A stretch of DNA of 41,165 nucleotides from Clostridia bacterium. Its GTDB lineage: Bacteria > Bacillota > Clostridia > UBA1381 > UBA9506. The position numbers and the translations under genes were made by a program. This document shows, piece after piece, positions 3,725-34,676 of the stretch. Positions within the stretch are counted from its first letter, which is position 1, and every line of letters starts with the position of its first letter. The notes beneath the pieces are model-generated. The model ran no database searches. It had not been told where the DNA came from and worked only from the letters and a program-made list of their open reading frames with translations. Location: positions 1-41,165 of the forward strand of contig JAFQWH010000046.1 of NCBI GenBank assembly GCA_017407515.1, given 5' to 3'.

Positions 3725-3849
3725 AACAACCAAACGAATGTAATTTTATAAAAACTTGGTTTTTTAATGAAAATGTTACTTTTTTTTAATGGTTATGTAG
3801 TATGATAAAAGTAAGAGAAAGTACAAACTCTTGCAAGGGAGGAATTTCT

Positions 3850-4755
3850 ATGACAAAAAGACTGTTACTGGCTTGTCTCGCCGCCATTTTGTTTCTAACC
3901 GCCTGCGGCAATTCAACAAAGCCTCAGAAAAAAGTTGTAATATATTTCGCTAATGCTTCCGGTACCGATTTAGCCGCCGTTGATTTAGACGTAAATAAAA
4001 AATCAGCTGAAGAGCTCCCCCGTTACGTAATCGAAAAACTGCTGGAAGGTCCTACCGACTCCAAAATGTCCCGGGCTATTCCTTCAGAAACCAAACTGTT
4101 ATCTGTAACAACAGAGAACGCCCTTGTTAAGGTTGATTTCTCAAAAGAATTTTATCACGAAGAAGGCATTTACGATATATTGGCCATTGCCTCTGTCGTA
4201 AAATCACTCTGCTCTATTAACGGTGTTGAACAGGTTCTGATTACCGTTGAAGGAGAGCCTTTTGTAACCACCGGCGGCAAAGAGCTTGGCATATTAAAAG
4301 AAGGGGACATTGTGTTTGATGCCGACGCACTGGCTCAGGACGAAGAAGACGTTACTCTGTATTTTTCAGACTTAAACGCCGAATATCTTGTGCCGGAAAT
4401 TCGCCGGGTTAAAGTTCGCCGTGGTGAAGCACTGGAAAAACTGGTGGTGCAGGAGCTGATTGCCGGCCCGAAAACAAATCAGGCAGGCCGCACAGTGCCT
4501 CAGGAAACTAAGATTCGTTCAATCGAAATTAAAGATAACGTTTGCTTTGTCAATCTTTCCTCAGAGTTTGTAAGTAAAAATATGGTAGGTTCAACAGCTG
4601 AACGACTGATTATTTACTCCATCGTAAACTCCCTAACAGAGCTTTCCGGCATCGATAAGGTTCAGTTCCTAATTGAGGGCGAAAAGAGAGATGTTTACCA
4701 GCATATGTTCTTTAACGAGCCCTTCTCCAGAGATGTGAGTATGATACAAAAATAA
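3850..4755 (+). CDS. Lipoprotein with two GerM (GerMN) domains
   Basis: GerM-domain proteins act in spore formation and germination in Bacillus and occur widely in Clostridia as exported lipoproteins. I choose the ATG at 3850 (301 residues) because AGGGAGG precedes it by 7 bases. It then begins with a clear lipoprotein signal ending in LFLTAC, cysteine 19. Two tandem GerMN copies are visible: residues about 30-150 (VVIYFAN...AVDLDV..., VKVDFSKEFY) and about 170-295 (VTLYFSDLNAEYLVPEIRRV, CFVNLSSEFV). Each contains the conserved VI.KLLEGP / ELIAGP block. It is probably anchored outside the cytoplasmic membrane. It stands alone, ended by a strong terminator. Confidence 0.85.
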   Translation: MTKRLLLACLAAILFLTACGNSTKPQKKVVIYFANASGTDLAAVDLDVNKKSAEELPRYVIEKLLEGPTDSKMSRAIPSETKLLSVTTENALVKVDFSKEFYHEEGIYDILAIASVVKSLCSINGVEQVLITVEGEPFVTTGGKELGILKEGDIVFDADALAQDEEDVTLYFSDLNAEYLVPEIRRVKVRRGEALEKLVVQELIAGPKTNQAGRTVPQETKIRSIEIKDNVCFVNLSSEFVSKNMVGSTAERLIIYSIVNSLTELSGIDKVQFLIEGEKRDVYQHMFFNEPFSRDVSMIQK

Positions 4756-4795
4756 AAAAAGAGACGGCGTAGCCGTCTCTTTTTTATTTTAATTT
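4754..4795. terminator. Bidirectional intrinsic terminator
   Basis: Perfect 8-bp stem GAGACGGC (4761-4768) with GCCGTCTC (4772-4779), A-rich on the left and TTTTTTATTTT on the right. It serves the GerM gene and the convergent Cys-rich gene, whose stop lies inside the T run. Confidence 0.9.
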
Positions 4796-5646
4796 CCGCA
4801 GCAGCCGTTACGGAAGTCTGACAGATTTTCAAACTTGCAATCGTCCTTTTCCGGTGGGAAAAATTCATCAAAGGGGAATTCAATCTGTTCAAACAGGTCG
4901 CAGGGGCTGTCTTCACTTGACGCCACACACTCTTTCTGGGGCACGCAGAAATCATAAGCAGGAATTAACAACTGCACACTTCTTTCAATTTTTACAATAG
5001 AGAAAAGACCAATGGAAACAAAAACACGTTTTTTGTCGCCACCCAGCACTAAAGCATCGTCAAACACGTTGCAAACACATTGGGGGATTCTGGAAAAATC
5101 CAGTTCCTCACAACAGCAGCAAAGCTTATCGTTTATGTCAACCACTTTCGCTGCCAGGCACAGGGGGTCTACAACTTCAACAACCGCCTTGGGCATATTG
5201 GTTTTCTGCCAGAGCTGCTCATCGAAGCTATCGTAGCTGTAACGGGATTCAAACACCTTAGCAGAACCCTCAGAACCAAACAGAATTACCTTTTTGTCAA
5301 AGCTTGCAAGACCTTCTACTTTACAGGGTTTGCCCACGCCGGTAAAGACGTCTAAGGTAATTTTAAAGAAGAATTTTAAATCAACTGTAAAGTAGCCGCG
5401 GTTAAAAGGAACAGGCTCAACGTCCGTAAATACCCAGATTATCTCAGACTTTCTGCACTTAACGTTAACTGCTCTGTCAATAATCTCCTGGCCCTGAGCT
5501 GTAAAATAAACACGAGCATCTTCAATACAGTCTTTATCTTTGCAGGAATCATAAATTTTATCGGTATGTATGCAAACTGCTTCTTTTGGGTCATTGCAGT
5601 TTCTCTCGTAAGGGGTACGCAGTTTTTCATTCATATCAATTTCCAT
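4789..5646 (-). CDS. Conserved cysteine-rich clostridial protein of unknown function
   Basis: A 285-residue soluble protein with about 23 cysteines. The N-terminus has a motif I recognise from uncharacterised clostridial proteins, KIYDSCKDKDCIEDARVYFT (about residues 30-49). A beta-rich middle part follows (ASFDKKVILFGSEGSAKVF), then a CCCC cluster (about 174-177), and it ends in NGCCGN. No signal peptide or membrane helix is seen. Its neighbour is a sipL-like sporulation gene on the same strand, so a spore coat or other sporulation role is possible, but that is inference. The ATG at 5646 has AGAAAGG almost touching it; the ATG at 5634 is better spaced and is a possible alternative start. A predicted pseudoknot sits just upstream. 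Confidence 0.75.
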   Translation of the reverse strand: MEIDMNEKLRTPYERNCNDPKEAVCIHTDKIYDSCKDKDCIEDARVYFTAQGQEIIDRAVNVKCRKSEIIWVFTDVEPVPFNRGYFTVDLKFFFKITLDVFTGVGKPCKVEGLASFDKKVILFGSEGSAKVFESRYSYDSFDEQLWQKTNMPKAVVEVVDPLCLAAKVVDINDKLCCCCEELDFSRIPQCVCNVFDDALVLGGDKKRVFVSIGLFSIVKIERSVQLLIPAYDFCVPQKECVASSEDSPCDLFEQIEFPFDEFFPPEKDDCKFENLSDFRNGCCGN

Positions 5647-5727
5647 GCCTTTCTGCCCACAAATATTCTAATACGCTGTTTCTTATCTGTGGGCGGATAA
5701 GGCGTATTGCTGTAGGAAACCTACGGC
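5647..5727 (-). promoter_or_regulatory. Candidate pseudoknot RNA element in the leader of the Cys-rich gene
   Basis: Read on the minus strand, three helices can form. P1: AAUACGC (5708-5702) with GCGUAUU (5676-5670), 7 bp. P2: CUUAUC (5701-5696) with GAUAAG (5687-5682), 6 bp, stacked on P1 with an AAACA bulge. The 8-base P2 loop, CGCCCACA (5695-5688), can pair through 7 bases with UGUGGGC (5661-5655), making a pseudoknot that ends directly before AGAAAGGC-AUG. A short hairpin (5727-5709) precedes it. It resembles a translational switch in layout but matches no riboswitch consensus I can recall. Confidence 0.55.
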
Positions 5728-5795
5728 TTCCCTCTCTATCAACATCATATGCATGTGCATAACTAAATGCCACACTTTTTCGATATGTTACAAGA

Positions 5796-5841: not shown

Positions 5842-7398
5842 CTAGCCTCTGGGAATCAGTAGCTTTTGACCGGCAAGCAATTTGTCATGATCCATCTGAT
5901 TGAGCCCCATAATTTTCTCCTGGTCAATCCGGTAGAACTTCGCAATGTCCCAAAGTGTATCTCCCTTTTGAGCAAAATAAATAACCAAGCCTCTGTCAGC
6001 TACTGCTTCTGCCTCTTCTTCATGAATTTCACAACCGCCAATCAAGTCAAAGGCTGTCTTTTTGACTACACGAGTATAAAACTCCAGCATGCAACGAAGT
6101 TCAATTTCTGAGGCAGCATTTAACGTAAAGCTAATGTTCTGGTCTGTTATGCCACATTCGCAGAAAACACTCTCATTAGCACCGTCTGCCGGAACGCTGT
6201 GCTCAAAATCGTATTCTCTAACCAGGCTGTACATGGGGTCATCTCCCTCCGCACTGCCATAAAGCACAAACACAATCAGCTTACCGCGAATTACAAGCTT
6301 TTCGTCAACAATTAAAAGCTCCTGCACCTTTGGCTTGCAATCTAAGCTGTAAACCAAAGCAGCAGAGGGTGCTTCCTTAGGAACAGAAAGAATTTCTTTT
6401 AAATTTAGATGACTGACACCCTCGCATAACAGCTCATCTATCTGCACACAGCTTCGGCTGACATCAGTACGGCCTGACAGACTGTAACAATCATCAATAA
6501 CGTCAAGCTCTCTTGTTTTAGTTGCTAAAATTTCAGCTCGGAGTACAACGTCTAACGAAATCGCTCTGGGGTCCCCGTTTACATCTTCATGAAGAGTGTA
6601 AAAAACGTCTTTCACACTGTATGACACATTACACAAACAGCCATCATCAAGGCCCGGAAGCTCAGCCATTTCTCCGAAGGGAAGTTCGTGTTCAACGGAC
6701 TGAATCCCATGTTCTGCATCTACGCTGTTATACAGGGTATGAATCAACAGTGAGCCTTTCAACAACATCTTACCGGACATAATTTTGCAATCGCCCTTTA
6801 ATGCCTTGGCCGTAACCTGAATCAGTTCATCAGCATCGGGTTTTGCCGCCGGAATCTCTAAAAGCTCTGTAATCACCAATTCTTTTTCCGTATCAGCCAC
6901 CACCTGATAAGCACTGAGTGTTTTGGTGCGAACCTTTAAGGGGCAATCTCCCTCAGTTCCGGTTAAAAGTGATATATCTCGGCGGCTGTAGCTTCTCACG
7001 CCAACAGAAACCACAACTTTCATATTCAGTTTACGAGAGTTAATCAGTGAAAACTCGATATGCTCCGTTGCTGTTTTAAGACTAAACTCCAAGCCCTCTT
7101 CCTGAGAAAGTTCTAGCGTGTCCTTAAATTCAAGCTTGGTTTCAATGTGCTTCGGTGCACAGTCCTCTCCATCGGGGATATATAAAATCTTAACCGAAGC
7201 ACTGCCGGAAAAACTGAGCTTTCCGTCAACATAATTCTGATTGGTAACCACGGCGGTTGCCTCTGTCAGCAAAATTTCTTTAATATCCGGCTTAATATCG
7301 GGAACAATTACATCGCCCTCAACTAAAAGTGTTGCCGTTTGGTTGGCAACCAGTTCGCTGACACTAAGTGTTTCCTTTTGAAAATCTATCTGCATCAT
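5842..7398 (-). CDS. sipL: SipL-like spore morphogenesis protein, DUF3794 repeats plus LysM
   Basis: In Clostridioides difficile SipL binds the ATPase SpoIVA through its LysM domain and is needed to assemble the coat around the forespore. This protein has 518 residues from the ATG at 7398, chosen because AAGGAGG lies 5 bases upstream; an upstream in-frame start has no such site. Three DUF3794-type blocks are visible: about residues 20-115 (VEGDVIVPDIKPDIKEILLT), 165-265 (ISLLTG...LLKGSLLIHTLYN) and 325-415 (LLIVDEKLVIRGKLIVFVLY). A C-terminal LysM domain, GDTLWDIAKFYRID to KLLIPRG, covers about 472-518. No signal peptide, consistent with mother-cell cytoplasm. It ends with TAG. Paralogous DUF3794 proteins exist, so the exact SipL assignment is likely, not certain. 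Confidence 0.8.
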   Translation of the reverse strand: MMQIDFQKETLSVSELVANQTATLLVEGDVIVPDIKPDIKEILLTEATAVVTNQNYVDGKLSFSGSASVKILYIPDGEDCAPKHIETKLEFKDTLELSQEEGLEFSLKTATEHIEFSLINSRKLNMKVVVSVGVRSYSRRDISLLTGTEGDCPLKVRTKTLSAYQVVADTEKELVITELLEIPAAKPDADELIQVTAKALKGDCKIMSGKMLLKGSLLIHTLYNSVDAEHGIQSVEHELPFGEMAELPGLDDGCLCNVSYSVKDVFYTLHEDVNGDPRAISLDVVLRAEILATKTRELDVIDDCYSLSGRTDVSRSCVQIDELLCEGVSHLNLKEILSVPKEAPSAALVYSLDCKPKVQELLIVDEKLVIRGKLIVFVLYGSAEGDDPMYSLVREYDFEHSVPADGANESVFCECGITDQNISFTLNAASEIELRCMLEFYTRVVKKTAFDLIGGCEIHEEEAEAVADRGLVIYFAQKGDTLWDIAKFYRIDQEKIMGLNQMDHDKLLAGQKLLIPRG

Positions 7399-7451
7399 CT
7401 GCTCCTCCTTCATTCTTTCCTCTTGCTTCAATCTATTCACCCCACGCCCCG

Positions 7452-34413: not shown

Positions 34414-34420
34414 AATATAG

Positions 34421-34676
34421 TAGGTAGAGGTGCGTTTTTTAATCAGTATCTGCGGCAAAGAATGCGGAAATTTGCTTGATGTCACAGAGAAAGGGAAGAA
34501 ACGCCGAAGGTTATGCGGTTCCGCCCGCATGTTCCTGGGGGTACGGTTAAGAGCCGCATCACTGTCATCCGCTTTTTCGGATGGAGAGCTATCGTTGCTT
34601 TTTAGCATATGTATGTATCTTTATATATTTGTATGCAGAAGCCAAACTCTCCATACGTTGGAGGTTTGGCTTTTTT
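34421..34676 (+). promoter_or_regulatory. Lysine riboswitch (L-box) with terminator
   Basis: The L-box blocks occur in order: GGTAGAGGTGCG (34423-34434), CAGTA, GCCGAAGG near 34504-34511, ACTGTCATC near 34561 and ATGGAGAGCTATCG (34581-34594), with GGTAG/CTATC closing P1. An intrinsic terminator follows: GCCAAAC/GTTTGGC with an inner CTCCA/TGGAG stem and TTTTTT (34640-34676). CTCTCCAT (34647-34654) in its left arm is exactly complementary to ATGGAGAG (34581-34588). This gives an antiterminator when lysine is absent and P1 is open. Lysine binding should switch the operon off. Confidence 0.93.

Follow-up and report, generated by a model that had tools for sequence, protein, structure and literature searches.

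A pseudoknot abutting its own Shine-Dalgarno sequence belongs to a dispersed, probably mobile RNA-structured element placed before start codons in Clostridia

The window analyzed here is the whole 41,165-nt stretch of a Clostridia bacterium contig (JAFQWH010000046.1, assembly GCA_017407515.1), whose minus strand encodes an uncharacterised Cys-rich protein with a SipL/SPOCS-LysM gene (5842-7440, minus) and a Germane lipoprotein gene (3802-4755, plus) as neighbours. The Cys-rich protein (CIHTDKIYDSCKDKDC...), which matched no entry in Pfam, NCBIfam or PDB, is kept in most relatives and is a candidate spore-coat protein. Its leader and coding region comprise the following features:

4789-5634, minus strand: host gene, uncharacterised Cys-rich protein (homologues in 55 of the 61 genomes searched)
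5632-5634, minus strand: probable true start codon, MNEKLR... (homologue starts)
5648-5654, minus strand: element-supplied Shine-Dalgarno (SD) sequence AGAAAGG (complementary to the 16S 3'-terminal CCUUUCU, B. subtilis mapping)
5655-5661, minus strand: pseudoknot 3' strand TGTGGGC, abutting the SD (window sequence and covariation)
5670-5676, minus strand: P1 3' strand GCGTATT (window sequence)
5682-5687, minus strand: P2 3' strand GATAAG (window sequence and covariation)
5688-5694, minus strand: pseudoknot 5' strand GCCCACA, in the P2 loop (window sequence and covariation)
5696-5701, minus strand: P2 5' strand CTTATC (window sequence and covariation)
5702-5708, minus strand: P1 5' strand AATACGC (window sequence; the P1/P2 stem covaries)
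5715-5732, minus strand: short hairpin GGGAAGCCGTAGGTTTCC near the presumed transcript 5' end (window sequence, homologous leaders)
5743-5751, minus strand: -10-like box CATATGATG of a presumed sporulation-type (sigma-K/E-like) promoter (homologous-leader comparison)

The three helices of 7, 6 and 7 bp that the preliminary description proposed between 5708 and 5655 of the minus strand are all present in the window sequence. The loop of the inner hairpin indeed pairs with a strand ending at AGAAAGG, but the start codon is probably not the one proposed just after it, at 5646; rather, the ATG at 5634-5632 sits 13 nt past AGAAAGG, and homologues start at the same methionine (MNEK...). The earlier ATG of two congeners (G006 and G008) begins a reading frame of no more than 4 codons, which overlaps the real start. 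With a covariance model derived from 93 instances, one of them being the window copy, this copy scored 59.9 bits (E 2.8e-14 in its own genome), and the helices covary, which bears out the earlier judgment that the pseudoknot exceeds chance. The plain minimum-energy fold of the leader is another long hairpin that masks AGAAAGG (-38.8 kcal/mol, z -4.2), since nested folding cannot represent pseudoknots.

Upstream, the -10-like box is kept as CATAnnATA before homologues of the Cys-rich gene, and from its consensus we take it to be sigma-K/E-like. All ten congeneric leaders of this gene share the sporulation-type -10 region. The additional upstream hairpin, described initially with an A.C mismatch, is probably a 5'-terminal hairpin common to Cys-rich leaders across the order, with or without the knot. 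Throughout the order, these leaders show a short, sequence-variable hairpin a few bases past the -10 box (for example GAGAC..GTTCTC, AGAG..CTCT or GGG..CCC), whether the element is present or absent, and it is possibly a 5' mRNA-stabilising hairpin of the sporulation transcript.

The pseudoknot itself was found in three of the ten congeneric leaders (the window, G006 and G008), the other seven being ordinary SD leaders. The three knots have GCCCAY/TGTGGGC in common and stems that differ and are fully paired. Homologous leaders lacking the complementary segments, which had been named as grounds for refutation, thus exist for the Cys-rich gene, while the motif stands as an independent repeated element. 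Neither a leader specific to this gene nor thiol or metal sensing on its behalf is upheld, given that seven congeners lack the knot and that the element precedes dozens of functionally unrelated genes elsewhere; a riboswitch dedicated to the Cys-rich gene was dropped on the same grounds.

Indeed, of 41 related genomes, 16 contain the pattern GCCCAY-N-TGTGGGCAGAAAGG, and the reversed control pattern matched none. Scanning of genome contigs retrieved 94 stretches with the motif, nearly all from Clostridia, including the culturable Ructibacterium gallinarum DSM 107454, with a few chance matches elsewhere, and the covariance model R1, built after aligning the instances, matched 52 of the 61 genomes of the order and 48 of 391 sampled across the class, in a patchy distribution. 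The search patterns behind many of the instances required AGAAAGG; the orthologous leaders described below were found without such patterns. The window genome holds at least five copies, located before the Cys-rich gene, an S1-domain gene (L212), a gene on contig C64 (L213), and iorA-like (L353) and iorB-like (L362) genes. One genome, G047, carries about 78 copies at E<=1e-4 in 2.5 Mb (its full match list contains antisense shadows), versus about 5 in the sister species G055. The preliminary description named several small-riboswitch consensus forms that the structure does not fit, and it corresponds to no known RNA family: an Rfam 15 covariance search of the window and 17 element loci at the families' gathering cut-offs returned nothing over the element, and a permissive scan of eight loci gave sub-threshold, chance-level matches only.

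The position of the copies is regular. Among 182 distinct instances with knot and stem, 178 are followed on the same strand by the start of an ORF (>=40 codons) 7-18 nt past AGAAAGG, most commonly at 14 nt, as compared with 194 of 1180 random positions (16%). The four exceptions are two chance matches outside Clostridia, the first of a tandem pair and a decayed copy. In one locus (L155, about 5954-6223, minus strand), two tandem copies lie 154 bp apart before a single gene. The genes downstream include pgk, pfkA, guaA, a Clp ATPase, purC, cmk, fusA, gyrB, dnaN and murA, as well as ssb, efp, frr, pth, a carboxylase, an aconitase-family protein, feoB and pta; no ligand-related pathway shared among them was found.

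Comparison of orthologues revealed that a full copy is about 160 nt long and occupies, in sense orientation, the gap that separates the start codon of a gene from its native SD. In 5'-to-3' order, its parts and what follows are a palindromic hairpin (H1), domain A, helix P0, the P1/P2 stem with its pseudoknotting loop, AGAAAGG, some 14 nt and the start codon. H1 shows compensatory changes (AACGTGA/TCACGTT, AGTGTGA/TCACACT, ACGCAA/TTGCGT), and covariation in domain A (GUGCG/CGCAC, CGCCG/CGGCG and CGCUC/GAGCG around a 3' AU bulge) is seen by inspection alone; on the long forms, RNAalifold favours the SD-masking hairpin or yields H1 alone. An SD-like motif directly precedes H1 in 51 of 58 long copies, against 12% at random. 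In G047/G055 orthologue pairs, the same native SD remains on the left of the insert and the start codon on its right, as in taacggaggtat[element]ATGGGACAG compared with taacggaggaattactATGGGAATG; one such pair, 98.7% identical in amino acids, retains the native CGGAGG on the left and ATG on the right. Occupied and empty sites were likewise evident among the Cys-rich, S1, nuoE and asd leaders of the window's genus. Long copies at unrelated genes in four genera of one family (g1, g3, g4 and g6) are 77-92% identical to one another, and a long copy from another family is 76-81% identical to these. Near-identical copies thus stand at unrelated loci, as expected of a mobile dispersed repeat. Together, the flanking SD and start codon, the orthologue pairs and the near-identity of long copies indicate recent insertion between SD and start codon. 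Confinement to start codons may be due either to targeting or to strong selection among the copies that survived.

With regard to asd, the window's own gene follows, at about 34718 and with an ordinary SD, a lysine riboswitch at 34417-34599 (plus strand, 97.8 bits); the asd orthologue of two congeners (G002 and G004) carries the pseudoknot element.

Several copies of G047 deviate from the common plan. The H1 loop of six (L231, L235, L236, L241, L260 and L265) holds a further structured domain of ~70 nt (AAGAACCCGACCCGCC...GGCGGGTACCCCGGAACCTTGTTGTTT), of which the shorter H1 form may be a deletion derivative. In another six (L220, L221, L223, L226, L245 and L246), the outer pairs of H1 differ from copy to copy and yet match between the two arms, a pattern such as copying of the palindrome from flanking sequence, or its correction through template switching, would leave. 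The copies before the start codons at L282, L283 and L285 are very short and comprise just the terminal 35-75 nt of the element, with TTTGTGGGCAGAAAGGCTATGG; at L282, an unrelated perfect hairpin directly follows an SD-like motif. LINE-like 5' truncation was considered for the 5'-truncated L282 and L283 and set aside, as later decay explains most of it and G047 has no reverse transcriptase match. H1 was also discarded as an upstream ORF (SD plus GTG), because other genomes have GCG in the hairpin, or GTG directly followed by TGA, with the hairpin kept by compensation.

The search for a mobilising partner gave no consistent candidate across copy-rich genomes. RVT_1 (reverse transcriptase) had no match in G047, G012, G019, G035 and G024 and did match in G014, G055, G088 and G120, whereas Y1 transposase is absent from the copy-rich G014, G088 and G120 and present in G047, all of them incomplete MAGs; both enzymes were therefore rejected. 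Carriage by phages or plasmids was rejected as well, no copy being found in the viral contigs, phages and plasmids searched, and a resemblance to group II introns (GTGTG/GTGAA ends) was dropped because the element is too short. Inspection for MITE features disclosed a palindrome at the left end only, with no right-end partner or duplication seen at junctions that are not base-exact, G047 and G055 being too diverged for that resolution.

Older copies have lost much of this architecture. P0 stands out in recent copies (25 of 53 at p<=0.05) and is missing from old short ones (1 of 32); in the window copy, TTTCC at 5719-5715 could, instead of joining the short hairpin, pair with GGAAA at 5644-5640 as a trace of P0 (p about 0.08 versus shuffles). 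Short copies are devoid of H1 and domain A, and retain the knot and AGAAAGG with compensatory changes. That these persist as the rest decays identifies the knot with its SD as the part maintained at host genes, and H1, domain A and P0 probably serve the element itself. Judged by these sequence comparisons, the window copy is an old, trimmed remnant of the dispersed repeat, reduced to the pseudoknot and AGAAAGG.

Covariation was scored on 102 distinct rows aligned to P0 and P2, not to the knot. The combined P0, P1/P2 and knot structure was paired in 79.3% of cells, compared with 36-48% when slid by 1-3 columns, and none of 500 shuffles reached its covariation score. The knot was then evaluated in 32 leaders of iorA, the S1-domain gene, iorB, nuoE, asd and the Cys-rich gene in the window's genus; only AGAAAG-containing leaders were kept, so that this set speaks to covariation of the knot and not to the frequency of AGAAAG without it. 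The six bases abutting AGAAAG take eleven sequences (GTGGGC, ACGGAC, GCAGGC, GCGGGC, TCGGGC, GTGAGC, ATGGGC, GTTGGC, GCAGAC, GCGGAC and GTGGAC), and the hairpin loop carries the knot partner in all 32 leaders, one of them imperfectly (L212, where the script chose another partner). The median pairing score of 16 was reached by 3.5% of cross-pairings between types and 0.8% of shuffles. The loop therefore pairs with the 3' strand and the two change in a compensatory manner, as in an H-type pseudoknot. No invariant unpaired nucleotides of the kind expected in an aptamer were found among these 32 leaders, where loops, junctions, stems and knot vary while pairing and AGAAAG stay. Orthologues without the knot have GGAG-type SDs in place.

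Insertion pushes the native SD ~150 nt away, which leaves AGAAAGG as the only SD at usable distance, and translation of the host gene would rely on it. The 16S tail of B. subtilis has been mapped as 5'-CCUCCUUUCU-3' (PMC5732282). Its final seven bases, used here by analogy, form the complement of AGAAAGG. This register needs some three more bases of spacing than GGAGG does, and the observed 10-14 nt are in line. In nested folds without the knot, AGAAAGG is masked (mean unpaired probability 0.21; mostly paired in 135 of 156 leaders). When the knot strands are held, the mean rises from 0.21 to 0.51, and that of the window copy from 0.16 to 0.79, so the knot plausibly keeps the SD open; it would do so by locking away strands that otherwise form the long masking hairpin. 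Given the gapless junction between knot and AGAAAGG, and the complementarity of AGAAAGG to the 16S tail, it may be speculated that coaxial stacking of that tail's 3' end on the knot strengthens 30S binding. The element would be a general translation-initiation module and not a sensor for one pathway. Pairing of P0 with the SD-AUG spacer in recent copies would hinder initiation and counts against this mechanism.

On the sequence evidence, we consider it likely that this is a mobile structured element of Clostridia that exchanges one ribosome-binding site for another and whose pseudoknot keeps the incoming SD accessible to the 30S subunit. We put forward only tentatively a more detailed scheme, in which the SD-to-start gap would be targeted, the host SD replaced by one flush with the knot that pairs with the extreme 16S 3' end and lets the tail stack, and copies later domesticated as translation signals in essential genes.

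Other explanations have to be weighed against this one. The bistable fold would also suit a global regulator (an RNA-binding protein, a ribosomal factor, temperature or Mg2+) acting on all copies as a regulon, and it is favored by long maintenance of the element, in the window's genus, at genes such as iorA/iorB and the one with the S1 domain. The random assortment of genes, the lineage-specific gain and the lack of an invariant protein-binding sequence other than AGAAAGG nevertheless make such a regulon unlikely. Were the element a ligand-binding translational riboswitch, the knot (SD free) and the long hairpin (SD masked) would be two states selected by a metabolite or ion. This is improbable: although two mutually exclusive folds, one SD-masking, and a compact pseudoknot beside the SD recall known small riboswitches, the downstream genes have no common pathway, copy number differs between sister species as described, and many P2 variants lose their anti-SD potential. 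Furthermore, the stem, loop and knot sequences of orthologues change freely with only pairing and AGAAAG kept, which leaves no invariant binding pocket. The riboswitch-like layout noted at the outset thus survives as a pseudoknot beside the SD, and ligand sensing is unlikely for want of related genes and an invariant core.

A purely selfish DNA repeat of the MITE or REP type, folding back for single-stranded DNA transposition and surviving at start codons while lost elsewhere, would explain the palindromic left end, high copy number and patchy distribution. Even so, we give it a slim chance, because nearly all instances (178 of 182) lie in sense orientation right before a start codon, compensatory changes have preserved knot and SD well beyond the decay of the other parts, and several copy-rich genomes lack Y1 transposase. 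Hardly credible is the separate evolution of each 5' leader, with likeness due to convergence on a good ribosome-binding site; the short copies are very diverged in sequence, as this would predict, but share an exact architecture (P1/P2, knot and AGAAAGG with zero gap), and near-identical long copies stand at unrelated genes in different genera.

We found no description of such an element in Rfam or the open-access literature searched. As in preQ1 and SAM-II riboswitches, a compact 5' UTR pseudoknot lies by the SD and an alternative fold masks it; unlike in these, the SD lies beyond the knot, whose formation leaves it exposed, and there is neither a shared pathway nor an invariant aptamer core, with dozens of copies per genome and no Rfam match. 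The bcr1 repeats of the Bacillus cereus group and BOX, RUP and SPRITE of Streptococcus pneumoniae are short non-coding stem-loop repeats with many intergenic copies. The present element resembles them in being a short, non-coding, dispersed stem-loop repeat and differs in its location between SD and start codon, always in sense, in its own SD at fixed spacing, and in having a pseudoknot and a core kept by compensatory evolution after the rest decays. A palindromic end, lack of coding capacity and multiple copies are shared with REP and IS200/IS605-type (Y1 transposase) derivatives, from which the ~160-nt multi-helix RNA-like fold, gene-fixed orientation and the absence of Y1 from several copy-rich genomes set it apart. 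MRSC-65-2, a mobile or repeat candidate of a structured-RNA survey, is a single long stem sometimes near transposase genes (PMC11109978); it too shows covarying structure and reaches dozens of copies in a genome, but is, as described, not a multi-domain pseudoknot at start codons. Structured repeats and pseudoknot leaders are thus known kinds, while no match was found for a repeat that, at many genes, puts a pseudoknot-abutting SD in place of the original.

If the proposed reading holds, mobile DNA would have a new way to rewire translation genome-wide without contributing a promoter or a protein, and essential genes such as gyrB, dnaN, fusA and murA would have been left dependent on a repeat with its own SD. 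It makes testable whether initiation benefits from coaxial stacking between the knot and the 16S 3' end, what favours retention of AGAAAGG over AGGAGG, and by what means such an element finds start codons. Sister species offer natural before-and-after pairs of one gene with the element present or absent, and the family may serve as a source of compact ribosome-binding-site parts.
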